The translations under genes were made by a program, and so were the position numbers. This document shows positions 3,001 through 24,499 of a stretch of DNA of 31,737 nt, piece by piece. This DNA comes from a virus, in IMG/VR virus record IMGVR_UViG_3300047373_000615, positions 1-31,737 of that record; one strand, given 5' to 3'. Within the stretch, counting starts at the first letter, position 1, and each line of letters opens with the position of its first letter. The notes beneath the pieces were generated by a model. The model worked only from the letters and a program-made list of their open reading frames with translations. It ran no database searches and was not told the origin of the DNA.

Positions 3001-6000
3001 GTCTTTCGGCCCAAACGGAAAGGTTCTTCGACCAGGCGAATTAATGAAGCTAGTCGAAAAAGGTAGTTTGGCAGAAATAAGTGCTAAAGACCGTCAGGCA
3101 AGTAACACGGTTCGTCAGGAAATGGTTACAAAATTCAATAAAAATTTATCAAAATTATTGAAAGCCTCCAAGCCTGAAGGAGGTGACGGAAAGAAGAAGT
3201 CTCAACCCGACAATACAACTTTGACCTCTATGCAGAAAGAATGGCTGGCCACGGTCGAAGGCCTCAAGTCTACACATAAAAGGAGGTATCAAGCAGATAT
3301 AACTCCCGCCCAGTTAAAAAAGAAACTCGTAAGCGTGATGGCCGCGGGGGATAAGATGAAATCCCTCACTAATGCTTCACCGGAAAGACTAGCCGCTCTT
3401 AAGAAAAGGATAAACTTACTCGAAGAGCTTGAGATGCTGTACGCTCCGGAAAACCACCGTATCGATTGGGGGAGTACAGAAGTTCAAACCGGGATGTATA
3501 AAGGGATACGATTTAAGTATGGCGATGAACTGGTTGTACCCACTCTCGCGCAAATCTCCTCTCTTTCTACACCCACAAAAACCTACAATGCGAAAGGCCA
3601 GGCTAAAGGCGAAATTCTTAACCCGCAATCCACTTTAGCAAAGCTTTACACAGAGTTTGATTTATCGAAACAGAAAAAACCAGACGAACCCCATAAGGCT
3701 TTTAACTACTTAACTCCGAGGCAGTATCGACTCAGGCTTGCGGCTGCACTAGCTTCCGGAAAAACTGCCAACAAAGGTAAGACGAGAAAGACAAATCTTC
3801 AGGGAGATGACATTATTTCTTACTCACCCGACCAGGGAACACCTATCCTTCAACTCCTAGCCCGCCAGGTTTTCGAACTGAATAAGAGTGGACTGGAAGG
3901 AAAAGATCGAGCTCGCATGGATGCCGGCGAAGCTATTAGCCCCGAAGAAGCAATCCTTGCTGATGTTGTAAATGCACAGAACATGCTAGGTTCTCCCCAA
4001 ACCAGAAATCAGCTACGCATAATGTGGTTGATGTATAACCGGGCATTGGACTACAAGGCCGCCCTTGATGATCTTATAGATAATGGCCCGAAGCCAAAAC
4101 AGTCCAAAGAACATTGGGAAGAAAAAATTAAAGAGTACCAGGATGCAATAGCGGATCTACTAACTAACGAATTTGCACCCGGAGTTGATACCGAAGATGT
4201 CAGAATTCGAGAGCTGGATATTAAAAATAAGGATCATCTCAGAATACTTAAAGATAGATACAATAAGTATGCCGCACAGTTTGAACAAAAAGCGGAGGCA
4301 AAAGAGTTCTTACCCGATGACTCAAACAAAGAGATCAAGCCGCCTAAATACGATCCCGTCAAAAAAGTCTACAAGGATGTTTCAACCAAAGAAAAGCCGA
4401 CCCCAATGACTTTTAAAGAGTGGTTGGATGTAACTGAAACAAGAAGGGTTCGTGAAGACGGAGAATGGGTATCAAAAGAGTATAGAACGAATAGAATTGA
4501 TATGGTTACCTCAGGGCTCATAGCGCCGGCCGGACAGACTGAACAACCCTCCGAAGTCACGCCTAAAGAGCCTCAGGGCGGTACGCTTTATTCGGGAGCA
4601 CTGAGTGAATATGAGTTTAGCCACACAAGAGCAAAAGCTATCGATGATATTCATGCGGGTTGGAAAGATCAGCTAGAAAAAGCTGAGCTACTGACCTGGT
4701 CAGGTGGAGTTAGCAATTACCGGGATATTCTTAACTCTGTTGGTAATGAAGCAGCCGAGAATAAATTTATAGCTAAACTTTTAAAGGATCGGTATACCCA
4801 GGAAACGGGCGAAAAAATTAAGGATGAAAAAGGCAGCTACGATGCCTTCAATAAGTGGAAAAATAAGAACGGCTATAAAGCAATCCCTCGAAGTAGTAAA
4901 AAGCTGGAAAACTTACAGGCACGAAGAAGAAAAGGTTGGCGGGATAAAGAGTACACTAAGCGTGGCGACACCGACAGCATTGATCAACAAATTCGCGACG
5001 AACGCGAAGAGATCCGTAAAGATGCCGTAAAAATAAGAACCAAGATTTTTAACGATTATAAAGCTCTCCTTGATGAAAAACGAAAGGACGATATTGAAAA
5101 CGGAGCCGGCAAAAAGAAATCTAAAAAATTCAATAAGCTCATATTAAAACGCTTAGAAGATGAATTTGTAGAGCAAAAACCTGAGTACTACTCTAATGGT
5201 GCTATTACTTACCACAGCCCCTTCAGGTTGCGCGACAGTTCCGCGAAAAGATCACGCCGCACCCGGGAATTCCCAACTTTCCGTAGTGAGGGTTATGAGT
5301 ATGTAAGCGATCGCGAGGCCGTGGAGGATGGTGAAGTGATCGTAGAAATGTTTAATGATGTTCACGGTGATTTCAAAAGAAAGAAAGTAGATAAGACTTA
5401 TAATCTTCTTAAGATGTACCTTAAGGAATCTCGTGAGATTTTTGGAGCCCTCAAAAAAGAAACTATAACTAATGATGACGGAACCACGACTGAGGTTGCA
5501 GTTGCCGATGGAAAAGTTTTTGAGATTCCAGATAAAGTAAAAGAGGGTCTTGGAGAGGGAGCAAAGTCCTGGAATAAAGCATTTAGAGATCGAGAGCAGT
5601 TAAATGCTAGTTTTATGAGGGCCTTTGTTGTTCACGGCGATACAGTCGAATTTACAGGGTTTATTTCTGAGGATAAGAATATCGATATAAAAGCTCGATA
5701 TGACGGATTTAAAGAGCAGTGGGTCGATGAAACGGGTGATGTATTAAGCGAAGAACTTGGGTACGAGGAGTATACGATCGTTGGAACCGATGAGAAAATG
5801 AAGGTTTACAATGTGCCGAGTCTTCAGAATCAAGCGATTGAAGCATTTGCTGAAAGCGAAGACAAGAGGGGTACGGATTTCGCCAATCTGACCAACGGTG
5901 AAAATCACATAACCGCTACTCGCCTCGCACAAAGTATTTTTAAAGACGGCCCCGAATCAATCAAATGGTTCGCTAACAGTCAGGCTCGCGAAGCTGGTGG

Positions 6001-9000
6001 TGATAGTGCTCGGGAAATACCTGGAGCTCAATTTGCACCATATCTTATGTCTCGGGTTATGCACCCGCTTCTTAAAAAGATATTTGCTGATCTCAATGTC
6101 AATCTTAGCGCCTTAGTGCCTAAAAGCAGAAAAGATGATCCGGAAATAACTTTCGGAGAGCTGCTTGAAAAGCTGAACCTTCGACCAAATAAATCGAAGA
6201 AGGAGGAGGAGCCCGTTACCGAAAAATTCGAATCTGAACCGGTCACTCCAACAAGAGCCGTTCTTAGCGGCCAGGGTCAATCGGAGTTTATTAAAAACTG
6301 GCTGACCTCTAATCTAGATAAATACTCAGGAGAAAAAGGAGAGAAGAGATTCATCGGTGAAAATCACGATCGCGTTGGGGAAGTTACCAAAGAAGCTACG
6401 CTAACGAAAAAAGCGGAGAAAATTACTGATAGGGACATTGATCTCGAAAACGCAGTCTTAGCTGACGCAGTTGTCTATTTTAAGGTAAATGAAAAAAATA
6501 CCCGATGGGAGAGTATGAAAGGCTATCTCGATACGGAGCGTATTCTAGAGATCGATTTAACCAAAGACATAGACCCGAAAAAAGTTAAGAACCAGATTAA
6601 GCGAAATTTCGGGGATCTCCCGAAAAAATCAAAACTGAATCTGTTCTATTTTACGCTCGGAAAATCAGAGGATAAAAATGAGAAGATAGCAGAAGTTCTT
6701 AATGTTTTGCACAAGGGAGAGCCTGCCAAGAAGAAAGCTGAAAAAGAAGAGCCAAAGGTCGAAAGTCAAGAGCCGAAGGTCGAGACCAAAAAGGAAAAAG
6801 CGGCTCGTGAACTAAAAGAAGAGAGACGCTGGTTTGAAGACAGTGACCTATGGGGTGACCCATACATGAACTTCAGCCAGTGGTCAAAAAGCGTTGAGCA
6901 ATTAGTTGAACCTGTATTAACCGCGGTACTTAATGCACGCAGAATGGATATCTTCGATCAAAAGAAAAAAGAAGATAAAAACCAGCAAGTTTTACAGCGT
7001 GAAATTAGAGAAGGAGACACCGTTTCATTTTTTGGTAAAGAGGGCGCTGCACCAACTGAAGATGCACCGACCGAAGACCAAGAGTCAAATATGGGGGGAG
7101 ATGCACCATCTCAACCCTTTTCTGATGATGATAAAAGCCGATCAAGCGAGTCTAAAGACCCCGCAAAAAGAACAGAGAATTTCAAACCTGATGAACAACA
7201 GGTAGATCCAAATCTTAAGAGTTTAAACAAATTCATGGTCGAGAAAACTCGCGAGCGTGACATCCAAACCCGTCGCGCTCGAATACAAGGCCCAATTGGT
7301 CAAGCCGTTGCCGTAGGTGAAGGGGTGCTAGAATTTTTGGGTGAAGATATAGATACTCTTAAAAGACGCCTGCGCCTTAAAACCGGTTTAACTGCCTCCG
7401 AAATTAAAAACCTCAACCCTAATATAGTTCTTGGTCTAACCTTAAGCCGATTTGAAACTTCTATTGTAGATGAGGATATTTTTGATGCCTGGCCGGATGG
7501 TATAACCCCTCCGCCAGCTCTCCCAATGTGGGATCCTGAAATATCAGCGGATAATATAAAAGAAATAGATACTTGGCTGAAGGGTATGGATTCGCACAAG
7601 GATAAAGCGCTGGGGGTTTACTGGAAGTACTTGAAAGATAATTTTGGGAAGGAAGGAGAACTCAAAGATTTTAAAGGCTATCAGAAAAAAGTTTCAAAGA
7701 AAATAAAGGAGCTTGAAGAGAGCTACATAAACCCAAAAAAAGGAGAAACCGGAGTAGAGAAGTTTCAAAAAGACACCTCGACCTCCGATTGGGATCCATC
7801 AAAAGATCCTGGTGAAGCTTTTCAGAGTGGAGCGAGCTACAGCCTCAAAAACCAGAAAAGAATCTCCTCACTTAGAAAAATATTCGAGACGGTTAAAGAC
7901 CGAAAGAGCTGGGTTGAGCTAGGCAAAGAACAACCTTTTATACCTAAATTTAACGGGGAGAAATACCTCGGTGCTGGAGGAGTTCGAGATCAACTTACAT
8001 TAGACTATGTAGACAAATTTAGACCAATTAAAAATCTGTTCTACGATGTCAAAAGGCATCTTGGAGATAACATGGAAAAAGGTAGTGCTGTCTATGACTC
8101 CTTAAACACATGGGGTAAAATTCACACCTATCTCGGCATTGGTCATACAGATTTAGAGCAAGCCCGTCTCAAGTACCGCGAACCTATAGCTGAAGCGATG
8201 AGAGAGACTGGGGTTGCTCCAAAGGATGTAGGGCAATACCTCCAAGCTCGTATGGCTCCGAACAGAAATATTCACCATAGAAAACAGACTGAAGACCAAA
8301 TCCTAGAACTCGAAAACGAAAAAGATTTAGATAAGAAAGCGGAGAGAATGGAGTTGCTCCAGGAGCGTTTAAAAAATGACAAGCCTTCCGCTATAGGAAC
8401 CAAAGAGGCGATCAAAATGGTTAAATTTTTAGAGAGCGATGAAGAAGGGAACATATCAGCTTTTTTAAATCACCCCAATAACCCTCTCCAACTATTCTAT
8501 GAACAGCAAGCTGCTGACCTTCAAAATCGAGTCGAGAGTGAGCTTATCGACCCTGAAGAGCAATCCCGAATGACTGCGGCGGCATCCTATTTTGATTGGT
8601 CAAAAAACGGCTCAAAATTCAAATTTGTAGGTGCAGACGGTAAAAAATCAAACTACTCGTACGCACCCATGCAAGGATTTGAGGGTGAGTTCCAGTCGAT
8701 GGTCGACGCTGAAAAGGCGTGGGAGCTTTTAGGTCAAGGTACAAAATCCGCAGGTAAAGGTTTTGATCAGCCAAAATATAAATTTATGTATGACGGGGCC
8801 TTCGGTCGCTACGGAACAACTGAAAAGGACGGTAAGATGGGAGTGCTTGGGCCGGATCCAGAAATTGCGTTGGGTGTATCTGAGCAGCAATTTACTGAGG
8901 GGTCGATTAGAAGTAATAAGAATACGGTCTCCCAGTCTTTTGCTCAGCTTCATGATGTGATGAGGCGAATCGCTTACGGGGTCGAGGAGGAAGTAGACAC

Positions 9001-11158
9001 TCCGAGTGAATTTAACGGACTGAAATTGGATGAGTTGCATAAGGATGAAAATATCAGGGACAGCGTTAAAAAAGAGTACGACAAATATTTTAAGACCTAT
9101 GTCCAGAAAGTCCCTAAAACCGAATATGTGTGGGAAGATATTGCTCCCGAGGATGAAGAGGGGACTCAGTCGGACCGGTTAAAAATTTCAGTTAAAACAA
9201 TTAGCAACGCCTTTAAAGACGACCCACATGTATTTGTGTACAGAAAAGGGGGTATTCCGCACTACATTCAGTTTCAAGAAAATGTGCACGGTAAAATGAT
9301 GGCAGCTTCCCTTAAAAACATGCGCTACGAGGCAATGCCTGAACTACTAAAAGTAGTGGGTGAGGGAACTCGGTTCATGTCCCAGGTATTCACATCGAAA
9401 AACCCATACTTCATAGTCCCCAACTTTATAAAAGATTACGGCGCCGCGGCGATCAACCTATCAGAAGATGACAAAAGAGCGTTGGTAAAAGATGCACTAT
9501 CACCAGCCAACATTAAAAAATTCGGTCAAGCTCTCTTTAAAGCCGAGCGAGTCATACAAGGAGACAGAAAAAGTCCAGTCGATGTCGATGCCATTAAGAA
9601 AATGGATGCCCAAGAGATTTTGGCTCGAGGGGATGCGGTAGAAATGTACATGTACATGAAGCAAAAAGGTGGTCTAGTGGGGTACTTTAATGCAAAGAGT
9701 GTACCTAAATTAGTTGAGGATATGCTCAAGGACTCAGATCTTAAGAGTGAATCCTTTTTAAGAAGAAAATGGAGAGCGACTGCGGCTTATGTTAATGCGC
9801 TAAACTCAATAGCAGAAAATAGTATTCGTGTAAGCACATTCTGGGCTGCAATTAAAGATGGAAGAAGCACTCAGGAGGCTGCGCTTATATCTCGTAATGT
9901 CACAGTCGATTTCAATCAGGGTGGAAATAAATCGAATGCGATGAATTCGGTCTACATGTTCTTCAGAGCCGCGGTTAACGGTATTGACCGATCGTATAGA
10001 ACCTTAAAACACAGAACTCTCGCCCAACGATGGATGTTAGTCGGACAGATTGTCGGAGCGTCTTACGCGATCGGGGTAATAAATCGACTGATTGATGACG
10101 ACGAAGATGAAGAAACTGAACCGGTCTACGATCAACTTTCCGCTCATCAACGCCATCGTAAAGTTGTTATACCTTTCCCCAAGTGGTTAGCCGAGTCGCT
10201 GGGTATGGAGAAAAAAGCCAGACTCACGATGATCGATATCCCTCTTGGATTACCTGCTGGATTATGGGGCGCGGGTCAGTCTCTTGCTGATCTCACCGCA
10301 TACTACGGATTCGGTCGGGGTGGGGCAGGTCTATTGGAAACAGCCGGCAACTTAACGCAAGATATAACCGATGTAGTGAATCCGCTAGGCTCAGGGAGTT
10401 TCTTGAATTTACTAACTCCCTCCCTCGCAACCCCATTTATGGAGCTCGAATCCAATAAAGATTTTATGGGCCGCAAGATTGTGTACGATCAAGAACAGTT
10501 TGGAGGTACAAAAACACCTCCTCATGAACGCGACCCCAAAAGAACACCTTGGTTTTTTAACTGGTTTTCCGAGCAGATAAATAAAGCGGGAGGGGGATCC
10601 GATGCATCGGTTGGGTCTTTGCGGGGAGCACTAGGTCAGAATCCTTTGGAATTTAGTGAGGAGGAAGATTGGAAGTGGGATTGGAGCGGCAATCAAATTA
10701 GACATCTACTTTTTGGATTTCTCGGGGGCCCAATTAGGACTGTGGAAGACACATTCATAACAATGGACGCACTGTTTGATTCCAATAAAGAAGTAGATCT
10801 TCGAAGCGTTCCTGTAGTATCCAGATTTGTACGAAACTTCACCTACGGGGGTAACACCAGGAATAAACTGTACAACTTAAAAGAGGCCGTAGGACAGGCC
10901 GAGCAATTAGTTAAAGACGCACCCGCAATGGCAAAACCAGAGGCTAAGAAGTTTAACGCGAAACTACTGAGCTTTTCATCAGACATTGCACACTACGATC
11001 GCACCAGACAGCGTTATCGCGATCAAAAAAATAAGATCGAAGCCTCTAGTCGGATTGAACACCTGAAGTTACAACTGATTGCCGAACTAGAGGCTAAAGA
11101 ATTAGAATTGATGACGAAGATTATTAATCGTGCGCAAAAAGCCGGTCTATCCGTATAA
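2..11158 (+). CDS. Giant LPD38-type polyvalent virion protein with HExxH protease-like site (5' partial)
   Basis: The frame is open to the left edge, and TTG at 8 or ATG at 11 are only the first possible starts inside the window, so the true N-terminus probably lies upstream. Residues here count from position 8 (3,716 codons). HESGH at 257-261, with a possible third zinc ligand in AEDWFAMQ about 67 residues later (E328), resembles a zincin. Residues about 430-700 and several later stretches are Lys/Glu-rich and probably helical. The C-terminal quarter follows the layout of phage large polyvalent proteins: QARMAPNRN near 2745, YAPMQGFEG near 2888, NPYFIVPNFIKD near 3135, and the LPD38-like RNVTVDFNQGG at 3296-3306, followed by a hydrophobic segment and a coiled-coil tail. 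Such proteins are often internal virion proteins ejected with the DNA; that role and the protease activity are inferred. The stop overlaps the portal start (TAATG). Confidence 0.85.
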   Translation, partial: TGLMAGRVRQSARYLGMKGGMLTNASKFAKANKRSDWAQAGLDVPVFSRWQRAYDAVGPEMGVQIAGGAGGEYLSQLISRDPGEAIDHDAAMAEGVVEVFSPFGMYGTLKDTFSGASAEKTDFSKATPTYSKPEPLEINGQVIGQKGTVTRAGMQQNWQSFDSSDSMAAYLQEVSGIQFDPNNPKSESNRRAQWIQDFTMRLQGMNPQAFKDLRLVVAERTPDSVEQEGFWEHDPASGAQTIFLNAEKVKANPMRAFMHESGHFARKQIFKNSDQFYEMYGNLGQQAQLDSWAEYILKVPNIKFNQIKSEQDKLLVSETFREASPKLRAEDWFAMQWARILAGNPADRSVAKPLDQFNKKFIRPLMEGWMGSEENLGADLALDAEVLDAMGWGPNGTRMGDTLPADYDRPGVRAAALPEGFEQMSEEEGINWLNKKINEYDLEDRHQIASTLEGILGKKFYTPEVSAFVSGETISKKEAAKFSDPKAAKKYSAEKVKLAKDYLKGEKQARKYLKSGDYKRVKAEVLAEADKMDFTVTDADTAMTVGASESTREIGVHPTEVKPKKTGPKGANQTFDIPGTKTKEVSTGGRVDVSKYPKTKAGAQAKKEAWIQSEIRKRTDAEISKTTDTAAVSEKILKLRQKEQKFLPRDLKSKDNKKVISALKKVEKLVSDPALLKKEVQSAVRKRVKAMMKKAGVDYDALDKDVKVETWDKFVKRINWLEVVGDIAAFDSMLNVSRAGSSRWGLELIGDLGRKAPPEIEVSDSLLAGRENLEDSRAYLDTIKDELSKELVGLEAALKTEKKDWGGEKKSKDKTKILKLYPANPNALRADKNPDFTKQIDLKKGKVVKDRKGLYVGEGAISKYAEKLAKSKKGKSKAAKIVDQALRLLENSQVKNNKYKQIALQPKTGKFFMLAEELGTPQEQQAAIPQADAKVINQSITASISKYIQGLDMSKGLKPAIAEQKFAERAKDQNFRNLHAGFFRSRGWKETFIKVFFETMSFGPNGKVLRPGELMKLVEKGSLAEISAKDRQASNTVRQEMVTKFNKNLSKLLKASKPEGGDGKKKSQPDNTTLTSMQKEWLATVEGLKSTHKRRYQADITPAQLKKKLVSVMAAGDKMKSLTNASPERLAALKKRINLLEELEMLYAPENHRIDWGSTEVQTGMYKGIRFKYGDELVVPTLAQISSLSTPTKTYNAKGQAKGEILNPQSTLAKLYTEFDLSKQKKPDEPHKAFNYLTPRQYRLRLAAALASGKTANKGKTRKTNLQGDDIISYSPDQGTPILQLLARQVFELNKSGLEGKDRARMDAGEAISPEEAILADVVNAQNMLGSPQTRNQLRIMWLMYNRALDYKAALDDLIDNGPKPKQSKEHWEEKIKEYQDAIADLLTNEFAPGVDTEDVRIRELDIKNKDHLRILKDRYNKYAAQFEQKAEAKEFLPDDSNKEIKPPKYDPVKKVYKDVSTKEKPTPMTFKEWLDVTETRRVREDGEWVSKEYRTNRIDMVTSGLIAPAGQTEQPSEVTPKEPQGGTLYSGALSEYEFSHTRAKAIDDIHAGWKDQLEKAELLTWSGGVSNYRDILNSVGNEAAENKFIAKLLKDRYTQETGEKIKDEKGSYDAFNKWKNKNGYKAIPRSSKKLENLQARRRKGWRDKEYTKRGDTDSIDQQIRDEREEIRKDAVKIRTKIFNDYKALLDEKRKDDIENGAGKKKSKKFNKLILKRLEDEFVEQKPEYYSNGAITYHSPFRLRDSSAKRSRRTREFPTFRSEGYEYVSDREAVEDGEVIVEMFNDVHGDFKRKKVDKTYNLLKMYLKESREIFGALKKETITNDDGTTTEVAVADGKVFEIPDKVKEGLGEGAKSWNKAFRDREQLNASFMRAFVVHGDTVEFTGFISEDKNIDIKARYDGFKEQWVDETGDVLSEELGYEEYTIVGTDEKMKVYNVPSLQNQAIEAFAESEDKRGTDFANLTNGENHITATRLAQSIFKDGPESIKWFANSQAREAGGDSAREIPGAQFAPYLMSRVMHPLLKKIFADLNVNLSALVPKSRKDDPEITFGELLEKLNLRPNKSKKEEEPVTEKFESEPVTPTRAVLSGQGQSEFIKNWLTSNLDKYSGEKGEKRFIGENHDRVGEVTKEATLTKKAEKITDRDIDLENAVLADAVVYFKVNEKNTRWESMKGYLDTERILEIDLTKDIDPKKVKNQIKRNFGDLPKKSKLNLFYFTLGKSEDKNEKIAEVLNVLHKGEPAKKKAEKEEPKVESQEPKVETKKEKAARELKEERRWFEDSDLWGDPYMNFSQWSKSVEQLVEPVLTAVLNARRMDIFDQKKKEDKNQQVLQREIREGDTVSFFGKEGAAPTEDAPTEDQESNMGGDAPSQPFSDDDKSRSSESKDPAKRTENFKPDEQQVDPNLKSLNKFMVEKTRERDIQTRRARIQGPIGQAVAVGEGVLEFLGEDIDTLKRRLRLKTGLTASEIKNLNPNIVLGLTLSRFETSIVDEDIFDAWPDGITPPPALPMWDPEISADNIKEIDTWLKGMDSHKDKALGVYWKYLKDNFGKEGELKDFKGYQKKVSKKIKELEESYINPKKGETGVEKFQKDTSTSDWDPSKDPGEAFQSGASYSLKNQKRISSLRKIFETVKDRKSWVELGKEQPFIPKFNGEKYLGAGGVRDQLTLDYVDKFRPIKNLFYDVKRHLGDNMEKGSAVYDSLNTWGKIHTYLGIGHTDLEQARLKYREPIAEAMRETGVAPKDVGQYLQARMAPNRNIHHRKQTEDQILELENEKDLDKKAERMELLQERLKNDKPSAIGTKEAIKMVKFLESDEEGNISAFLNHPNNPLQLFYEQQAADLQNRVESELIDPEEQSRMTAAASYFDWSKNGSKFKFVGADGKKSNYSYAPMQGFEGEFQSMVDAEKAWELLGQGTKSAGKGFDQPKYKFMYDGAFGRYGTTEKDGKMGVLGPDPEIALGVSEQQFTEGSIRSNKNTVSQSFAQLHDVMRRIAYGVEEEVDTPSEFNGLKLDELHKDENIRDSVKKEYDKYFKTYVQKVPKTEYVWEDIAPEDEEGTQSDRLKISVKTISNAFKDDPHVFVYRKGGIPHYIQFQENVHGKMMAASLKNMRYEAMPELLKVVGEGTRFMSQVFTSKNPYFIVPNFIKDYGAAAINLSEDDKRALVKDALSPANIKKFGQALFKAERVIQGDRKSPVDVDAIKKMDAQEILARGDAVEMYMYMKQKGGLVGYFNAKSVPKLVEDMLKDSDLKSESFLRRKWRATAAYVNALNSIAENSIRVSTFWAAIKDGRSTQEAALISRNVTVDFNQGGNKSNAMNSVYMFFRAAVNGIDRSYRTLKHRTLAQRWMLVGQIVGASYAIGVINRLIDDDEDEETEPVYDQLSAHQRHRKVVIPFPKWLAESLGMEKKARLTMIDIPLGLPAGLWGAGQSLADLTAYYGFGRGGAGLLETAGNLTQDITDVVNPLGSGSFLNLLTPSLATPFMELESNKDFMGRKIVYDQEQFGGTKTPPHERDPKRTPWFFNWFSEQINKAGGGSDASVGSLRGALGQNPLEFSEEEDWKWDWSGNQIRHLLFGFLGGPIRTVEDTFITMDALFDSNKEVDLRSVPVVSRFVRNFTYGGNTRNKLYNLKEAVGQAEQLVKDAPAMAKPEAKKFNAKLLSFSSDIAHYDRTRQRYRDQKNKIEASSRIEHLKLQLIAELEAKELELMTKIINRAQKAGLSV

Positions 11159-17000: not shown

Positions 17001-17825
17001 ATGAGCGACTTAAGAGTATTAACAACTGCGGATATCAACAACTTAACCCCCTTGACGGGTGATGTGGTTGTTGATTCCGATCTCAATGCGGTCAAACTTT
17101 ATGACGGTACCGATTGGAAAATTTTTAATGCAGACTCTCTGGGGGTGCCATTCGGAAACCGCTGGGGCGTAGATTTTAATGGTGGTAAACTGTCGGTCGC
17201 TAGCACTACTGATTTTGCTTTTGGGACTACCGGTTTTACAATCAGCATGTGGTTCATTCACGATAATACCGATCAAGCACTTTTTGATTTCAGAGGCCCC
17301 AGCGCAACTCCAATGGTATGGCTAACTAGCAGCTCTATTAAATATTATGCTAATAGCGGCTACCGAATTACTGGAAGCTACACTTATCAAGTAAATACAT
17401 GGAGGCATTTAGTTATCCATAATGACGGTTCAGGCACAACCAGTATGTACTTAGATAATTTAAATACCCCTCTCGGTACATTTTCAGACTCAATAAGTTA
17501 TGTTCAAGCTCCTTTAACTATTGCGACTTATGGAGCAAATGCAGGTGGGGGTAGTAATAAAATAGACGAGTTTTCTGTTTTTAATTCTACTTCTTCTTTA
17601 AGCAGCCTAGCTGACTTAGTAAGCGGAGGTAAACCCGCAGATCTCGATTCGTACGACCCCGTTGCTTGGTACCGCATGGGAGACGATTCAAATGATTCAG
17701 CAACCTCAGGCGGAAGTATCGCAACCATAACCGATTCAAGCGGAAACGGAAATGATGCAACCCAGGGAACTGCAAGCCTTCAGCCTACATTCTCTGACCT
17801 AACCGGCGAAACGATTTACATATAA
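17001..17825 (+). CDS. LamG-like (concanavalin A-like) lectin fibre protein
   Basis: This 274-residue protein starts with a short module ending in AVKLYDGTDWKIFNAD (31-45). A LamG/ConA-like beta-sandwich follows at about residues 54-210, with WGVDFNGGKLSV, FTISMWFIHD, WRHLVIHNDGSGTTSMYLDN and IDEFSVFNS, the usual order of strands in phage LamG proteins. The C-terminal VAWYRMGDDSND and ITDSSGNGNDATQ are characteristic of these proteins. LamG domains commonly bind glycans, so receptor binding or virion decoration is likely. GAGGAA four bases before ATG gives one of the few plausible ribosome binding sites in the window. The C-terminal 117 bases are closely related to a segment of the next gene. 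Confidence 0.82.
   Translation: MSDLRVLTTADINNLTPLTGDVVVDSDLNAVKLYDGTDWKIFNADSLGVPFGNRWGVDFNGGKLSVASTTDFAFGTTGFTISMWFIHDNTDQALFDFRGPSATPMVWLTSSSIKYYANSGYRITGSYTYQVNTWRHLVIHNDGSGTTSMYLDNLNTPLGTFSDSISYVQAPLTIATYGANAGGGSNKIDEFSVFNSTSSLSSLADLVSGGKPADLDSYDPVAWYRMGDDSNDSATSGGSIATITDSSGNGNDATQGTASLQPTFSDLTGETIYI
17676..17792 (+). repeat. Duplicated LamG C-terminal segment, copy 1
   Basis: This 117-base stretch, coding for the segment from MGDDSNDSATS onward, aligns without gaps to 18561-18677. By eye roughly four in five bases or more are identical, which points to a fairly recent duplication within the fibre cluster. Confidence 0.75.
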
Positions 17826-17837
17826 CCTTAAAATCTC

Positions 17838-19424
17838 ATGGCAACTATAGACATAATCGCAGACAGAAGCACCGGAACCGCTGTAGCGGGTAAAGCGTAT
17901 TTCGAAACCTCGACGAATCAATTCATAGTATATACAGGCACCGCATGGATCAATATTGACTCCGATGGCACTGGCGCGTTCTTCGAAAACCTCTGGGGCG
18001 CGGGCTTTGACGGCAATAATGATTGTCTTGCAACTTACGATCTGCAAAAAGGCGGTTCTTCTGCTTTTACATCGAGCACCGATGATGTATCTATGAGCGG
18101 CTGGGTTAAGCTGAACAGTTTTCTTAATGACGCGGGTTTATTTGGATTCGGCAGAACTCAAAATGGGGCTGCGATGAATAGCGGCTCGGTGGCAAATATT
18201 GCCACCTACACCAACGGTTCGATTTATATGCACATTAACGGCAGTGCATTTAACGTCCCGGGCACTCTCAATACTGGTGAGTGGTATCATATTGCTTTCA
18301 CTCACAACAGCACTTCTGGCGCGGGAATAGTATATCTAAACGGAAACCAAGTTCATACATACACTAAGGTTGGCAATGGTTATCACACAAATTTAAGCGC
18401 ATATATAGGCGTTGGTCGTTGGGCTTATGCATTCTCCGATGCAGATATTGATGATGTAGCTATTTGGAATTCAGTTCTATCCCCATCCGACATCACAAGT
18501 ATATACAACAGCGGAGTACCGAGTGACCTCGCTCCGTTAAACCCTGTAGGTTATTGGAGAATGGGAGACCATTCAAACGATTCAGCAACTTCAAGCGGAA
18601 ACATTGCAACCATAACTGATTCAAGCGGAAATGGGAATGATGCGATTCAGGCAACTGCAAGCAAGCAGCCTTCATTCGCGGCGCTTGACCCTCTCAGCCG
18701 AAACTATTTACAATTTGATGGTTCATATCAGTACTTAAAGGGTACCCCGACTAGTAGTACAGATGTATACGGGGTTTCCGCATTTGTATTCCTCGATTCC
18801 GATATAACTCCTACTACTAGTCCGGCAGTTATATCTTCGGTATCCAACAATGCGATATTCGGACTTGGCGGCGATATTGCCGGCGCAGTACCCAATGAAA
18901 TAATTATAGTTTATCCAGCGGCGGCTTATGCATACGCCGATCCGAACGGGTCAATACCAAGAGGGTGGCATCATTTGATGATGGCTTGGTCACCAACTTC
19001 TCAAACTAATTCGGGTAGCCCGGGTTATGATATATATTTGGATGGTAATATTGTTGGGAATGTGATTAACACTCAGTGGGGGTCGCCGGGTTTAATTACA
19101 ATGGCGAGCAACATGCCATTCTATCTTGGCTCAAGAGGAGGTGGTGCGTATATGTGGTCCGGCTTAGTAGACGAGGTCGCAGTGTTCGGTACTCAGCTCA
19201 CTTCATCCGACATTACCTCGATTTACAACAACGGTGTTCCCGGGGATATAAGTGCATTAAATCCAGCCGCGTGGTGGCGAATGGGTGATGACGATTCTTT
19301 TGTCCCAGGCGGTGTCGTATCTCAGGTAACAGACCATTCCGGAAACGGAATACACCTAGAGCAAATCACGAATTATATGAAACCGATCGCGGGGGCATCT
19401 AATTCAATATATAAAGAATCTTAA
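17838..19424 (+). CDS. Double LamG-domain fibre protein
   Basis: This 528-residue protein repeats the plan of the previous gene twice. The N-terminal module includes YFETSTNQFIVYTGTAWINI (21-40). A first LamG-like domain (about 55-215) contains WYHIAFTHNSTSG and DIDDVAIWNSVLS; VGYWRMGDHSND and ITDSSGNGND follow. A second LamG-like domain (about 290-450) contains GWHHLMMAW, DIYLDGNIVG and VDEVAVFGTQLTSSDITSIY, ending with AAWWRMGDDD. Tandem ConA-like folds suggest multivalent glycan binding as a fibre or surface protein. Start context AACCTTAAA...ATGGCAACTA recurs at the next gene; there is no clear Shine-Dalgarno sequence. Confidence 0.82.
   Translation: MATIDIIADRSTGTAVAGKAYFETSTNQFIVYTGTAWINIDSDGTGAFFENLWGAGFDGNNDCLATYDLQKGGSSAFTSSTDDVSMSGWVKLNSFLNDAGLFGFGRTQNGAAMNSGSVANIATYTNGSIYMHINGSAFNVPGTLNTGEWYHIAFTHNSTSGAGIVYLNGNQVHTYTKVGNGYHTNLSAYIGVGRWAYAFSDADIDDVAIWNSVLSPSDITSIYNSGVPSDLAPLNPVGYWRMGDHSNDSATSSGNIATITDSSGNGNDAIQATASKQPSFAALDPLSRNYLQFDGSYQYLKGTPTSSTDVYGVSAFVFLDSDITPTTSPAVISSVSNNAIFGLGGDIAGAVPNEIIIVYPAAAYAYADPNGSIPRGWHHLMMAWSPTSQTNSGSPGYDIYLDGNIVGNVINTQWGSPGLITMASNMPFYLGSRGGGAYMWSGLVDEVAVFGTQLTSSDITSIYNNGVPGDISALNPAAWWRMGDDDSFVPGGVVSQVTDHSGNGIHLEQITNYMKPIAGASNSIYKES
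18561..18677 (+). repeat. Duplicated LamG C-terminal segment, copy 2
   Basis: This is the partner of 17676-17792, in the same orientation and frame, coding for the segment from MGDHSNDSATS onward. In this gene it lies between the two LamG domains, so the copy joins the modules here instead of ending the protein. Confidence 0.75.
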
Positions 19425-19711: not shown

Positions 19712-19961
19712 CATAAAAGTCTATAACGATGCGGGGTTAGAAGATACCCCTGAAACAGTAACCAGCTATAATGGCGAGGTTGCGAGAGTTTCTACTTTTA
19801 TAGAAAATTTACAACAGCTCACGGATGCCGTTACCGAAAATACGCAAACCGTTCAAGGTATAACCTCGGGCGCGAGCTCCTCTTTGGACAGCTTTAAAGA
19901 GGTTGAAGAAAATATGTCTGTTGATGATTTCCTTGCAGCTTTGAATGCGGAAGATGAGTGA
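19704..19961 (+). CDS. Small helical protein of unknown function
   Basis: This 85-residue acidic protein has a predicted coiled-coil middle (VARVSTFIENLQQLTDAVTE) and a Ser-rich turn before an acidic C-terminus (SVDDFLAALNAEDE). I recognise no family. Its ATG sits eight bases before the upstream stop (ATGGGTGA), the same arrangement used by the next gene, which suggests coupled translation. Proteins of this kind near fibre genes are sometimes assembly helpers, but nothing in the sequence proves it. Confidence 0.68.
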   Translation: MGDIKVYNDAGLEDTPETVTSYNGEVARVSTFIENLQQLTDAVTENTQTVQGITSGASSSLDSFKEVEENMSVDDFLAALNAEDE

Positions 19962-20169
19962 GGAGGATTTTACTCCACCTCCCCTGGAAACCTTAACGCT
20001 TCAAAAAGAGCTGCGAGAAGCTCAGGCAAAGATAGACGATCTCAAAGTCGTTATAGATACTGCCCAGGCGGCTTTAAGGCGCGCGGAAGCGACTCTCTCT
20101 GATGATGATCTTGCCCATGTAATCAACCGGTCTGCGAAATGGGTTTTAAGCTATTCGCTAAAATCGTAG
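19954..20169 (+). CDS. Small coiled-coil protein of unknown function
   Basis: The 71-residue product (from ATG at 19954, MSEEDFTPPPLE) contains a long amphipathic helix, LREAQAKIDDLKVVIDTAQA, and no recognised domain. I chose 19954 over the in-frame ATG at 19945 because ATGAGTGA reproduces the eight-base stop/start overlap of the preceding pair. It ends within the last codons of the convergent minus-strand glycosyltransferase gene (19-base overlap). It may be a phage assembly or structural protein; function is unknown. Confidence 0.65.
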   Translation: MSEEDFTPPPLETLTLQKELREAQAKIDDLKVVIDTAQAALRRAEATLSDDDLAHVINRSAKWVLSYSLKS

Positions 20170-20927
20170 ACAAACTCGTCGTAGTATCTTCCAGTAAATT
20201 CGTGACGGCCGCAGTGGGCGATGTAGTCTTTTGTGTATGCATGGATCTTACCGCCTAAGCCTCTCCACAATTTACAGAAGCTAAAATCTTCACCTTGGTA
20301 AATTCCCGATTTTGGGTTAAACTTAAAATCAAAAAAGTTATAGAGGTTCATATACTCCACCATACCGTTGGGGGTGAATATGTTTTTCTTAATCCGAAGA
20401 CTAGGTTTCTCCTGAATGATCTTTTCAAAGACATGACGACGAACCATCATGAACCCGGTTGTTCCGTGTTCCACCTCTAACCAAGCATCGTCGATAAGCT
20501 TAGCGCCTTTGGCGGCTTTAATGGTGTACTTATTACCCAATATTTTTGCGGTACTTTTTGGGTGGTTCGCAACAGCTTTCTTACTCTTATCCCAGAAGTG
20601 TTGTTTGACGGGGTAGGGAGCGAAGGCGACATCGTAGGGGCTGTTTAAAAGACTGAATGCAGTCTGGGCGTCAAAACGAATATCGGAGTCTATAAATAGA
20701 AAATTATCAAATCTTCTATCATTCAGAAAATTGGATACGCAAATATTACGCCCTTGAGTTAGAATGCTCGATGCAACGATGCTGTTGTGATTTAAAACCC
20801 CCCGCTGGTGGCACTGAGAGGCAAGCTCTAGAGTGCTTAAGTGGTATTGGTGGTCGACATCTCCGTTACAGACTGTCGCCACAAATAATGAATTTAAGTT
20901 ATTGTTTCCGTTTGTATTTTCACCCAT
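20151..20927 (-). CDS. GT-A fold glycosyltransferase
   Basis: This 258-residue minus-strand product resembles small GT-A glycosyltransferases (GT2/Anp1-like) found in phages and bacteria. Features: a beta-strand start LFVATVCNG (14-22), LTQGRNICVSNFL (56-68), the metal- and nucleotide-sugar-binding DxD in FLFIDSDIRFD (DSD at 80-82), HGTTGFMMVRRHVF (154-167) and GEDFSFCKLWRGLGGKIH (212-229), where the acidic pair is a likely catalytic base region. It has no membrane segment. It would transfer a sugar to a host envelope glycan, the virion or another acceptor; donor and acceptor are unknown. A strong AGGAGG six bases before ATG fixes the start. Its 5' end overlaps the upstream minus-strand gene by 34 bases. 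Confidence 0.8.
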   Translation of the reverse strand: MGENTNGNNNLNSLFVATVCNGDVDHQYHLSTLELASQCHQRGVLNHNSIVASSILTQGRNICVSNFLNDRRFDNFLFIDSDIRFDAQTAFSLLNSPYDVAFAPYPVKQHFWDKSKKAVANHPKSTAKILGNKYTIKAAKGAKLIDDAWLEVEHGTTGFMMVRRHVFEKIIQEKPSLRIKKNIFTPNGMVEYMNLYNFFDFKFNPKSGIYQGEDFSFCKLWRGLGGKIHAYTKDYIAHCGRHEFTGRYYDEFVYDFSE

Positions 20928-21103
20928 GTTCCGCCTCCTATATATAGTAGTAAGTCTTCCGTATCAGTAGCTAAGGCGGTAGTGCCAATCGGATCTGAAG
21001 ATCTTGTTGTTATGTTGTTCTTAGTATCTATTATTCTAACGACACCTTTGTGTGTAGCTACATGATTCTTAACGCTAGTCCCTATAAAACTTAAAATGTT
21101 CAT
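20894..21103 (-). CDS. Small protein with a fibre-type 'LYIGGGTWVKI' motif
   Basis: This 69-residue protein carries GTTALATDTEDLLLYIGGGT followed by WVKI, the same short beta-hairpin element (variable residue, Leu-Tyr-Ile/Asp-Gly, Trp, Ile) seen in the N- or C-termini of the fibre genes at 16367, 17001 and 17838. The first 40 residues (MNILSFIGTSVKNHVATHKG) may be an anchoring segment; a similar start (IFQSLGSAVKTK) opens the plus-strand fibre at 21413. It could be a minor fibre or capsid-associated protein. Its ATGA overlap with the HTH gene upstream supports a real gene. Confidence 0.6.
   Translation of the reverse strand: MNILSFIGTSVKNHVATHKGVVRIIDTKNNITTRSSDPIGTTALATDTEDLLLYIGGGTWVKIQTETIT
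20934..20939 (-). promoter_or_regulatory. Strong Shine-Dalgarno site for the minus-strand glycosyltransferase
   Basis: On the minus strand AGGAGG sits six bases before the ATG at 20927. It is the best ribosome binding site I see in the window and lies inside the upstream overlapping gene. Confidence 0.75.
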
Positions 21104-21282
21104 GAAAGAGGCACCCCCAATGTTTTTTCTACATCAGCTCGAAGGTATCTTATCACTCGGGTGTTGATACATTTTCGGGCCCACTCGTGCTGTTTCGCCC
21201 AACGCCGAACCGTTCCAGCAGAAACATCCATCTTTTCCCGGATTATTCTTGGAGAAATATAATCAGATTTAGTTCCGGTCAT
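21100..21282 (-). CDS. Small helix-turn-helix DNA-binding protein (excisionase/MerR-like)
   Basis: The 60-residue protein has a winged-helix/HTH pattern: YISPRIIREKMDVSAGTVRR (helix, turn, recognition helix), WAKQHEW, then a basic wing-like end with VIRYLRADVEKTLG. This resembles HTH_17/excisionase or AlpA-like proteins. It opens a three-gene minus-strand unit and faces the plus-strand fibre promoter region, so it might control its own cassette, the fibre, or both; that is inference. No integrase is visible in this window. A GGAG on the minus strand lies too far from ATG to be a good ribosome binding site. Confidence 0.68.
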   Translation of the reverse strand: MTGTKSDYISPRIIREKMDVSAGTVRRWAKQHEWARKCINTRVIRYLRADVEKTLGVPLS

Positions 21283-21412: not shown

Positions 21413-22423
21413 ATGTCTAATATATTCCAGTCACTCGGTAGTGCAGTAAAAACTAAAATTGATAGCGCGGTAAGCGGTATTAATTCTGATATTGCTAGCG
21501 TTACCTCTAACTTAAACACAGAGATATCAAGAGCTCAAGCTGCTGAAGCTGCTAATTTAGCTTCTATTCAAAGCAACGACGTAGATATCGCATCAAACTC
21601 AACTGCAATCAGCACTGAAGAATCCCGTGCTCAAGCTGCTGAAAGCGTTCTTACTACAGACCTCGCGTCAGAAGTTTCTGATCGTGCGACTGCTGTCTCG
21701 AACGAAGCATCCGCAAGATCTTCTGCTGACTCAACTTTACAAGGTAATATCGACGCTGAAGCTACTGCGGCTCGTGCTGCTGAAGCTGCAAATGCTGCTG
21801 ATATTGCTGCTGAAGCTACTAGAGCTGCTGCTGCTGAAGCTACTAATGCTTCTGACATCAGTGCTGAAGCTACCAGAGCTGCTGCTGCTGAAGCTGTTAA
21901 TGCTGCTGATATCTCTGCTGAGGCTACTCGTGCGGCTGCTGCTGAAGCTGCCAACCTTGCTGCTATCCAGTCTAACGACAGCGACATCAGTGCTCTTAAC
22001 ACTCAAGCGGCTTCGCTTGCAGCTGACGGTAACTCCGCTTCCTTCAGTGGAAATGTTTCTGCTGCTGATATAACTGTTTCCGGTAACTTAACTGTTAGTG
22101 GAACGACTACAACAATCGACACTACTAATGTTGAAGTTAAAGACAGCATCATGAACATCTCTAAAGGTGCTTCTGGAGCTGCTAATGCTTCTAACGACGG
22201 TGGATTTGTTGTTGAGCGTGGATCCAGCGAAGACAATGTTGCTTTCGTATGGGACGAAGGAGCAGACCGCTTCCGTGCCGTATCGACTTCTGCTACCGCA
22301 GCTACCTCCGACATCGACGCTGCTGACAGCTCAATGAGCTATGTTGAAATGCAAGTTAGTGACCTCTACCTTGGAACCGATAACCTCGGATCTTTGTCTG
22401 ATTTCACAACAGCATTAGCATAA
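21413..22423 (+). CDS. Ala-rich coiled-coil phage fibre protein
   Basis: This 336-residue protein opens with a short anchor-like segment (MSNIFQSLGSAVKTKIDSAV), continues as a long Ala-rich helical stalk (about 20-205) containing four 18-residue repeats, and ends with a beta-rich region containing NLTVSGTTTTIDTTNVEVKD and FVVERGSSEDNVAFVWDEG, a segment common in marine-phage tail fibres. Such proteins usually form trimers. GCT, AAC and similar preferred codons dominate, as in the capsid gene and unlike most neighbours, so strong expression is likely. It has its own promoter candidate and a strong terminator 29 bases downstream. It may be a tail fibre or a multi-copy head fibre. No Shine-Dalgarno sequence is visible (aataataatATG). 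Confidence 0.85.
   Translation: MSNIFQSLGSAVKTKIDSAVSGINSDIASVTSNLNTEISRAQAAEAANLASIQSNDVDIASNSTAISTEESRAQAAESVLTTDLASEVSDRATAVSNEASARSSADSTLQGNIDAEATAARAAEAANAADIAAEATRAAAAEATNASDISAEATRAAAAEAVNAADISAEATRAAAAEAANLAAIQSNDSDISALNTQAASLAADGNSASFSGNVSAADITVSGNLTVSGTTTTIDTTNVEVKDSIMNISKGASGAANASNDGGFVVERGSSEDNVAFVWDEGADRFRAVSTSATAATSDIDAADSSMSYVEMQVSDLYLGTDNLGSLSDFTTALA
21749..21964 (+). repeat. Four tandem 54-base repeats encoding the coiled-coil stalk
   Basis: Units start at 21749, 21803, 21857 and 21911, each encoding 18 residues of the type xIxAEATRAAAAEAxNAxD. The array keeps frame, so copy-number change would lengthen or shorten the stalk in 18-residue steps. A flanking pair, AEAANLASIQSND and AEAANLAAIQSND, shows a further, longer internal duplication. 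Confidence 0.85.
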
Positions 22424-22488: not shown

Positions 22489-22893
22489 ATGCGAATATTA
22501 GCACTAGTCTGTCTATTTTTTTTATCTTCTTGTACCAGTTGGAAAACAGTAGCACCCACGGCTCTGGGAGCAGTAGGTGCGGGAGTGGGTGCCTTGGGTG
22601 GTCCTGGTACAGCTTTTGCCGGAGGCGGGCTCGGAGCGGCCGCAGGGCAGATACTAAAGGGGGAGGAAAAAGTTAAACAGCAAGCAGAAGAATTAAAAGC
22701 TTTATCAGAGGGGGATGTTAAAAAACTCTTAGACATTAAGTTGCAAGAGGAGAGGGGTTGGTTCGAGAACCTAATTGAAGGCATCTACGATATACTAAAG
22801 CTGAGCGCTCTTGGGTTGGGTGTAATTTACATATTTCAATTTCTTTATCACAGGCATTTTGCCAAAAAAAACAATCAACATAAAAAACAATGA
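22489..22893 (+). CDS. Lipoprotein with C-terminal membrane segment, u-spanin-like
   Basis: The 134-residue product begins with a lipoprotein signal peptide, MRILALVCLFFLSSC, whose lipobox LSSC gives Cys15 as the likely acylated residue. A Gly/Ala-rich stretch (26-53), a charged helical stretch (EEKVKQQAEELKALSEGDVK) and a C-terminal membrane segment near 103-122 (ALGLGVIYIFQFLYHRHF) follow, then a basic tail. A lipid-anchored N-terminus with a C-terminal membrane segment is the layout of unimolecular spanins, which join the inner and outer membranes to disrupt the envelope late in infection. The next gene is holin-like, which fits. The assignment rests on architecture and context; a different envelope lipoprotein is possible. 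It starts directly after a terminator, without a Shine-Dalgarno sequence. Confidence 0.72.
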   Translation: MRILALVCLFFLSSCTSWKTVAPTALGAVGAGVGALGGPGTAFAGGGLGAAAGQILKGEEKVKQQAEELKALSEGDVKKLLDIKLQEERGWFENLIEGIYDILKLSALGLGVIYIFQFLYHRHFAKKNNQHKKQ

Positions 22894-23057
22894 ATGACGG
22901 ATATAACGCTAGCCTTGCAATAGTTGGATCGGGGGGAACAGTTGTACTGACTGATCTCAACCCTTACCTCGCTTTCATGTGCGGTGTATTAACGCTTGTT
23001 CATGTGACTTGGTCGCTCTCAATAATGTGGCAAAAACGTAATAAAAAGCGTAAATGA
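22890..23057 (+). CDS. Small holin-like membrane protein
   Basis: This 55-residue gene (MNDGYNASLAIVGSGG...) joins both neighbours by ATGA overlaps. It shows a short hydrophobic segment (ASLAIVGSGGTVVL), a turn with DLNPY, a longer hydrophobic segment (LAFMCGVLTLVHVTWSLSIM) and a strongly basic C-terminus (WQKRNKKRK), as in small class II or similar holins. Holins form inner-membrane lesions that time lysis. It follows the spanin-like lipoprotein. No endolysin is visible here. Length, topology and neighbour support the call; sequence homology was not tested. Confidence 0.65.
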   Translation: MNDGYNASLAIVGSGGTVVLTDLNPYLAFMCGVLTLVHVTWSLSIMWQKRNKKRK

Positions 23058-23773
23058 GTATAGATGTTATCTACATAAATCTCTCATATCGAGAGGATCG
23101 TAAACAGAACATGGAGATGACCCTCCCTATATTAGGTTATCCCATTACTCGGTTTGAAGCCCACCGACCTACAAAAGATGAAATTTTAACCGGGAAGTAC
23201 TCGCATTACTTTGTGCGAAGCATCAAACGGATAAGGAATTACCTCTACGATGAGGCGACTCTCAGTCGAGCCTACGGGATATTCGGGGTGTACGCCTCCC
23301 AATATGATATCCACCAGTCCAGGATTGGGAATCCTAACAATTATATAATTGTCGAAGATGATGCTGTAGTCTCACCGGAAACCGCGGAAAGGCTGGATTT
23401 TCTATCTCGCTCGGAGCATATACCCAGTGATTGGGATATGATTCGCAATATCTGGTCTGACGAGGGGGATCAGACTCTCGATCTACATAAGTTTATGCAT
23501 TGCCACGAAGAATCAAAATTCGCGGATAAATTCAGCCACGGCCGATTTGGCGGAGCCCATTTCAGCCTTTGCAAAGGCTCAAGCGCTCAGAAAATAGTCA
23601 ACTATCTTGATTCCGATTATTTCTATGCGATTGATTCGGCATATTCTACCAGCCGATTAAATGTCTACCACACTAACCTTGGTGTTAAAATTGGGGACTA
23701 TGGGACTGATATCCCTAAAGATAGCCACACCCCCGAACCTAACGAGAACGGGCCAGTCTGCCACATCGCATGA
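23054..23773 (+). CDS. Glycosyltransferase family 25-like protein
   Basis: The 239-residue protein begins VIYINLSYREDRKQNMEM (5-22), the usual opening of GT25 (LPS-type) glycosyltransferases, followed by YGIFGVYASQYDIHQS (74-89) and YIIVEDDAVVS (97-107), in which EDD is the metal-binding acidic motif. RFGGAHFSLCKGSSAQKIVN matches the later part of the fold. GT25 enzymes typically add galactose or glucose to LPS or protein acceptors; donor and acceptor here are unknown. ATGA overlaps join it to the holin-like gene and to the sulfotransferase, suggesting the two enzymes act on the same glycan. Confidence 0.82.
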   Translation: MSIDVIYINLSYREDRKQNMEMTLPILGYPITRFEAHRPTKDEILTGKYSHYFVRSIKRIRNYLYDEATLSRAYGIFGVYASQYDIHQSRIGNPNNYIIVEDDAVVSPETAERLDFLSRSEHIPSDWDMIRNIWSDEGDQTLDLHKFMHCHEESKFADKFSHGRFGGAHFSLCKGSSAQKIVNYLDSDYFYAIDSAYSTSRLNVYHTNLGVKIGDYGTDIPKDSHTPEPNENGPVCHIA

Positions 23774-24333
23774 TTAACGACGAACATAAATTCATATACA
23801 TCCACCCGCCAAAGACCGGCGGGACTAGTATAGAGAAGCTATTCATGTCGGATGCGGATGTAACCGATGTCCCTCAAAAGCATAAATACTCGGACTTCTA
23901 TAATCAGGGGCGGTATAGTGAATACTATTTTTTTGGAACCGTCCGAAACCCGTGGGATCGAATGGTATCGTACTATCACTGGAGACTGAAGAAAAAACTC
24001 CCAATGTTTGGGGTTGAAAACTTCGCTGACTGGTTAATTTTCATCACCGATCCGCAGACCTTCAGCCTATATAATGAGGCTAATTGGCATTTTACAACAG
24101 CCATAGACCGTCAGGCCAAAATGCTTACCTATGTAGGTAACATAATAAAATTCGAAAATTTCCAGGAAGGTTTTGATAAAGTTTGCGACGATATCGGGAT
24201 ACCTCGAATGGAGCTTCCTCATGTCAATGCATCCGATCGTGGTTCTTACAGAGACTACTATAATGATCATACGAAAGGCATAGTAGCTGATTACTATGAC
24301 CAAGATATAGATTGCTATGACTACAAATTCTAA
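23770..24333 (+). CDS. PAPS-dependent sulfotransferase (family 2-like)
   Basis: This 187-residue protein has both PAPS-binding elements of sulfotransferases: the 5' phosphosulfate loop IHPPKTGGTSIEK (11-23, with K15, G17, G18, T19, S20) and the 3' phosphate element FFGTVRNPWDRMVSYY (54-69, with R59 and S67). Later, FENFQEGFDKVCDDIGIP fits the family. It would transfer sulfate from PAPS to a carbohydrate hydroxyl. It is shorter than many relatives but the cofactor motifs are intact. Overlap with the GT25-like gene suggests sulfation of a phage-modified host glycan or virion glycan; the acceptor is unknown. Confidence 0.85.
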   Translation: MINDEHKFIYIHPPKTGGTSIEKLFMSDADVTDVPQKHKYSDFYNQGRYSEYYFFGTVRNPWDRMVSYYHWRLKKKLPMFGVENFADWLIFITDPQTFSLYNEANWHFTTAIDRQAKMLTYVGNIIKFENFQEGFDKVCDDIGIPRMELPHVNASDRGSYRDYYNDHTKGIVADYYDQDIDCYDYKF

Positions 24334-24499
24334 AAAGAAGGAAGATAAGCCTAAAAAGATGTGCGGCGATAAGTGTATCGCTCCCACAGTGTGCAAAGAG
24401 ATTTTTCAGGGACAATGTGCTCTTGAAATGATGCAGAACGAGAAGAGCGAATCTCCGTCGAAAAAACCCGGCAATGTGACCGGTAAAAATAAGTATTAA
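24317..24499 (+). CDS. Small Lys-rich four-Cys protein
   Basis: This 60-residue basic protein carries four cysteines in a compact block, CGDKCIAPTVCKEIFQGQC (16-34), flanked by Lys-rich ends. The spacing could support a metal site or disulfides, but I recognise no family. It overlaps the end of the sulfotransferase by 17 bases and lies ahead of the scaffold gene. A small structural or regulatory protein is possible. Confidence 0.55.
   Translation: MTTNSKKKEDKPKKMCGDKCIAPTVCKEIFQGQCALEMMQNEKSESPSKKPGNVTGKNKY

Follow-up and report, generated by a model that had tools for sequence, protein, structure and literature searches.

A candidate glycan-sulfation module co-inherited with a fibre-domain subtype in uncultured marine phages

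A phage gene pair that couples a glycosyltransferase to a sulfotransferase raises the question of what the two enzymes build and on which molecule they build it. Such a pair lies in the window, by which is meant the whole stretch of DNA analysed here, namely the 31,737 bases of IMG/VR viral record IMGVR_UViG_3300047373_000615. The initial annotation had described two open reading frames, at 23054–23773 and 23770–24333, that share the four bases ATGA; both the positions and the overlap are correct. It had also proposed that a sulfated glycan is made on either the host envelope or the virion. It is reasonable to infer that the product of the pair is a sulfated glycan, and the choice between the two acceptors can now be narrowed by the genes with which the pair is inherited.

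The phage and its overlapping gene pair

Profile searches indicate that the window phage has an SU10-like portal and adaptor and a capsid protein that matches Phage_capsid_3. The capsid protein has 104 relatives in IMG/VR, 80 of which were retained as the clade, a group of uncultured marine phages; capsid and portal found no match among 50,697 records of cultured phages. A search of 14 of the longer clade contigs detected no integrase above the cut-off, which makes the clade probably virulent, although these contigs may be incomplete. Two proteins with LamG/ConA-like lectin domains are encoded at 17001–19424 and have a mosaic distribution in the clade, which suggests that these adhesin genes are exchanged separately; the first is 93% identical to its counterpart in contig L026 and at most 44% identical to the other relatives listed. 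An open reading frame for 3,716 residues at 8–11158 has no match of at least half its length in the clade flanks compared.

The upstream gene of the pair (23054–23773, plus strand) encodes a predicted GT25-type glycosyltransferase of 239 residues. Its PF01755 score is marginal, at 26.2 bits against a Pfam cut-off of 24, which is also passed by two of the four copies from other carriers. The acidic metal/donor motif, E101-D102-D103, is invariant across the five phages that carry the pair. A structure model (pLDDT 68, pTM 0.75) has as its closest folds Mimivirus R655 (Z 13.5), a bacterial beta-1,4-galactosyltransferase (Z 13.0) and COLGALT1 (Z 12.8); GT25-type enzymes score between 11 and 13.5, whereas other GT-A folds remain below 10, and the viral models matched are mostly family 25 enzymes from giant viruses and tailed phages. 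The three closest enzymes share the fold and the acidic metal-binding motif at 14–22% sequence identity, and the window gene is distinguished from theirs by its position directly before a sulfotransferase gene. The family and the intact EDD motif assigned initially are thus borne out. A pN/pS ratio of 0.14–0.42 among the carriers shows that the gene is under purifying selection. The protein has a weak PHROG match named glucosyltransferase and would add a hexose; that this sugar is galactose is only suggested, by the fold neighbours and the PHROG naming. A tblastn search found no relatives in cultured phages, and in IMG/VR the relatives are confined to members of the clade.

The downstream gene (23770–24333, plus strand) encodes a sulfotransferase of 187 residues, assigned through PF03567 (Sulfotransfer_2; 48.2 bits against a cut-off of 22) and through phrog_3347, 'Galactose-3-O-sulfotransferase', which matches over the full length (residues 2–187, E=1.5e-21). 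Both PAPS-binding motifs are intact and had been numbered correctly: PKTGGTS, the 5'-phosphosulfate-binding motif, spans residues 14–20, and R59 and S67 belong to the 3'-phosphate-binding motif. An alignment of 52 viral sulfotransferases shows no variation at R59, P61 or S67 and at least 90% conservation of K15, G18 and S20. The single comparison computed gives a pN/pS of 0.33. The structural comparison that had been proposed for both enzymes places the GT25 protein as expected; the AlphaFold2 model of the sulfotransferase, built from five sequences, reached a pLDDT of 46, too poor for fold comparison, and was left unused. Profile comparison with PDB sulfotransferases yields weak matches (E about 1e-3). 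Cellular relatives, 24–34% identical, occur in Alphaproteobacteria, Pseudoalteromonas and Thalassomonas, and the bacteria concerned are marine and plant-associated. NCBIfam offers no name for either enzyme or for the second glycosyltransferase described below.

Phage sulfotransferases have been reported before, and their function was called unclear (PMC10580990). The view that sulfation by a phage is unusual proves too strong: relatives are found in 47 phage records, 45 of which are Synechococcus phages, at least 168 IMG/VR stretches encode them, and several marine viral records contain 8–10 sulfotransferase profile matches each. The PHROG 3347/PF03567 enzymes of cultured phages, such as Synechococcus phage ACG-2014f, share family, size and PAPS-binding motifs with the window protein. 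They differ from it in that identity is about 25%, no GT25 relative was found in those phages, and the window phage has a single copy, placed in a late operon with GT25 and tracking a fibre domain. The 149 proteins that flank 40 viral sulfotransferase genes are most commonly sulfotransferases, methyltransferases, glycosyltransferases and sugar-nucleotide enzymes.

PAPS is made by APS kinase, and a convincing gene for this enzyme is present in two of 50 sulfotransferase-bearing records. In record G049 it lies directly behind a sulfotransferase gene (L165 4573–5064, E=4e-42), and in record G030 (L173 1426–1974) it stands beside an epimerase gene, with a GT25 gene about 1 kb away; most of the other APS-kinase profile matches are weak P-loop proteins. 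This proximity to sulfotransferase or glycan genes suggests that some phages may supply their own PAPS and supports PAPS-dependent glycan sulfation as the probable role of the viral family. Among the carrier contigs searched, none yielded such a gene. Arrays of sulfotransferase paralogs interleaved with glycosyltransferases occur elsewhere in large marine viral contigs (L003 1–9890, L004 4799–8561 and L099 3425–7400; records G007, G014 and G040). In L003, L004 and L099 the last 65 residues of the paralogs are 52–70% alike, against 38–41% for the rest, as if variable fronts shared one recombining tail.

A single slot and patchy inheritance

The pair is carried by five phages: the window phage, L001/L002, L006, L009 and L053/L054. 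Its slot is constant, with a gene for a 55-residue membrane-like protein on one side and, on the other, a gene for a small Cys-rich core protein (24317–24499, plus strand) and the scaffold gene; in non-carriers the Cys-rich gene directly follows the membrane-like gene. Accordingly the lipoprotein-to-scaffold distance is 2.0–2.3 kb in carriers and 0.6–1.0 kb in the others. Among the 56 contigs in which the slot is sequenced, six (five phages) have the pair and 50 lack it, and the two genes are never found apart there: they occur only together, in this one slot. Three of the phages have ATGA as the overlap, the other two GTGA. The linkage in related phages that the initial annotation had proposed as a check is therefore real. 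Its description of the flanks, lysis-like genes on one side and a scaffold gene on the other, holds for the scaffold; a lysis function is not established for the lipoprotein-like (22489–22893, plus strand) and 55-residue membrane-like (22890–23057, plus strand) products, which have no convincing family matches. These two genes are coupled by overlaps, are present in non-carriers and do not belong to the module.

On the capsid tree the presence of the pair requires five changes, the carriers forming five scattered lineages, and the closest capsid relatives of the window phage (88% identity) are without it. L001 and L009 are 83% identical in GT25 and 88% in the sulfotransferase, and only 58% in the adjoining scaffold gene. 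The pair thus has its own history, for which exchange between members of the clade is the best explanation. In GC3 the module is unremarkable. A chance pair of open reading frames is ruled out by the retention of both genes and their overlap in five phages, together with the pN/pS of GT25. PF01755 matches are present in seven of 46 unrelated viral records that bear sulfotransferases, mostly kilobases away from the sulfotransferase gene, so that the tight pair is clade-specific as far as has been seen.

Genes that track the pair

A third glycan enzyme had been overlooked when the two members of the pair were correctly named. It is a glycosyltransferase-like protein of 258 residues (20151–20927, minus strand), 2 kb from the pair and on the opposite strand, which matches phrog_1574 (E=2.1e-28) and the glycosyltransferase phrog_34859 (E=5e-5). 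Its presence or absence, subjected to a whole-contig check, follows that of the pair: it occurs in all four carriers in which the region is sequenced and in one of 28 non-carriers (Fisher p=1.4e-4, uncorrected for phylogeny). It belongs to a minus-strand mini-operon whose clade-wide part (20894–21282) encodes an HTH protein and a 69-residue fibre-end-like protein and lies within the plus-strand structural block; the non-carriers inspected have the HTH and 69-residue genes and lack the enzyme. The sole non-carrier with the second glycosyltransferase, L064, has an adjoining gene for a 211-residue protein (L064 4297–4932, minus strand). By eye its motifs GLQRTATNY and SKDPVMWVDS resemble those of a sulfotransferase, an assignment unsupported by Pfam, PHROG and hhalign. 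Besides the window, tblastn across the clade found a 74-residue coiled-coil-like protein (19945–20169, plus strand) only in the carriers L001, L002 and L054; in both the window and L054 its gene adjoins the second glycosyltransferase, and in L001/L002 it lies behind the sulfotransferase.

When every gene of the window was compared across the clade, one structural part was found to vary with the pair. The gene at 21413–22423 (plus strand) encodes a fibre-like protein with an Ala-rich coiled coil and a C-terminal domain (about 22031–22423), a candidate acceptor or receptor-binding partner; its position and its weak matches to the phage structural protein phrog_697 suggest that it is part of the virion. 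Over its C-terminal 130 residues, any two carriers share at least 70% identity, whereas identity to a non-carrier never exceeds 59%. On the tree of this domain the pair requires a single change, a value not reached in any of 500 shuffles, and permutation of the identities gave a result as extreme in 1 of 5000 cases; 20 positions are carrier-specific. Branch support for the carrier clade is weak (SH-aLRT 11–80), and the carriers number only five phages. The second glycosyltransferase, GT25 and the sulfotransferase are, on these genomic comparisons, shown to be co-inherited with one subtype of the fibre C-terminal domain.

All these genes lie within 4.4 kb, and physical closeness must contribute to the covariation. 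Recombination tracts of a few kilobases might even be its whole cause, with enzymes and fibre domain functionally unrelated; the HTH and 69-residue genes beside the second glycosyltransferase also track the pair in part (two changes). A single recombination block is, however, not a full explanation of the match, since the intervening lipoprotein gene does not track the pair (four changes, 422 of 5000 permutations), and neither do the scaffold (five changes, 1859 of 5000), the capsid and the adaptor. Moreover, the membrane-like gene is of two types among the carriers, and the enzyme inserts, the pair and the second glycosyltransferase, occupy two separate sites. Linkage without function is on balance improbable.

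The acceptor of the module

The preferred interpretation is that the enzymes form an optional, horizontally exchanged glycan-sulfation module whose acceptor is the phage's own fibre-like virion protein, to which we assign a probability of about 45%. Within the infected cell, the phrog_1574 glycosyltransferase and GT25 would assemble a short glycan on the fibre-like protein, and this glycan would be capped by the sulfotransferase with sulfate from PAPS, presumably that of the host. The charged glycan could then modulate adsorption, protect the fibre or reduce rebinding to debris. Two observations favour the virion fibre as acceptor: no structural part other than its domain tracks the module, and the genes are placed within the late structural block. 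The 14 clade contigs without an integrase above the cut-off point the same way. The presence of Mimivirus R655 and of the protein-modifying COLGALT1 among the closest folds of the GT25 model is consistent with this choice, and the placement of other viral sulfotransferases among glycan genes, one of them directly before an APS kinase gene, would fit a glycan module. By analogy with characterised bacterial GT25 enzymes, whose usual acceptor is lipooligosaccharide, a virion acceptor would be less expected. The fuller proposition, that a marine phage lineage adds a sulfated glycan to the tip of its own fibre through an exchangeable three-enzyme module co-selected with the matching fibre domain, is put forward tentatively.

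The same covariation would arise if the module altered a host surface glycan, lipopolysaccharide or capsule, that serves as the receptor of the phage's own fibre, and so blocked superinfection and the sticking of progeny to debris. A receptor-binding domain matched to enzymes that change its receptor accounts for the fibre-domain data equally well, Pfam describes GT25 in terms of LPS biosynthesis, and the cellular relatives of the sulfotransferase belong to marine and plant-associated bacteria. Against this stand the location of the genes in the late structural block, a module that includes neither a flippase nor a membrane-bound transferase, and a clade with no detectable integrase, in which long-term surface conversion is unlikely; for the last reason superinfection exclusion of the prophage style is less favoured. 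Both acceptors named initially still stand, the host surface being possible but the less favoured of the two. The Gtr serotype-conversion cassettes of temperate phages, also small accessory sets that alter a surface glycan, are comparable in the way they work only: the window module has no GtrA-like flippase or membrane-bound transferase, the slot insert consists of GT25 and the sulfotransferase alone, and the 55-residue membrane-like gene is a core gene. A very different target would be the bases of phage DNA. In silico work has suggested this for certain phage systems of glycosyltransferases and sulfotransferases, which PMC10829341, citing Iyer et al. 2013, assigns to nucleotide modification; the glucosyltransferase name of the weak GT25 match would agree with it. 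It is very unlikely here, as it leaves the structural-gene location and the fibre-domain covariation unexplained, and no PF00303 (thymidylate synthase/hydroxymethylase family) gene was found in 17 clade contigs, some of them fragments.

Glycosylation of phage virions is known, for example in mycobacteriophages (Freeman et al. 2023, as cited in PMC12691614), where likewise phage-encoded glycosyltransferases lie near structural genes and a virion acceptor is proposed; the window adds a sulfotransferase, and its case is made from genes and fibre-domain covariation. A search of the open-access literature revealed no example of a GT25–sulfotransferase pair that forms a mobile module and is matched to a fibre domain. 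Each enzyme family is already known, and what appears to be new is the linkage of the pair, the second glycosyltransferase and the fibre-domain subtype. To our knowledge, a fibre sulfoglycan with a dedicated synthesis module would, if true, be the first phage sulfoglycoprotein of that sort. Many marine viral contigs encode sulfotransferases. The module described here points to a defined partner, the fibre-like protein's C-terminal domain, with which the question of virion or host receptor becomes testable. Were the virion the acceptor, sulfated glycans would be present on phage particles and would affect how these adsorb, which hosts they infect and how strongly debris inhibits them.
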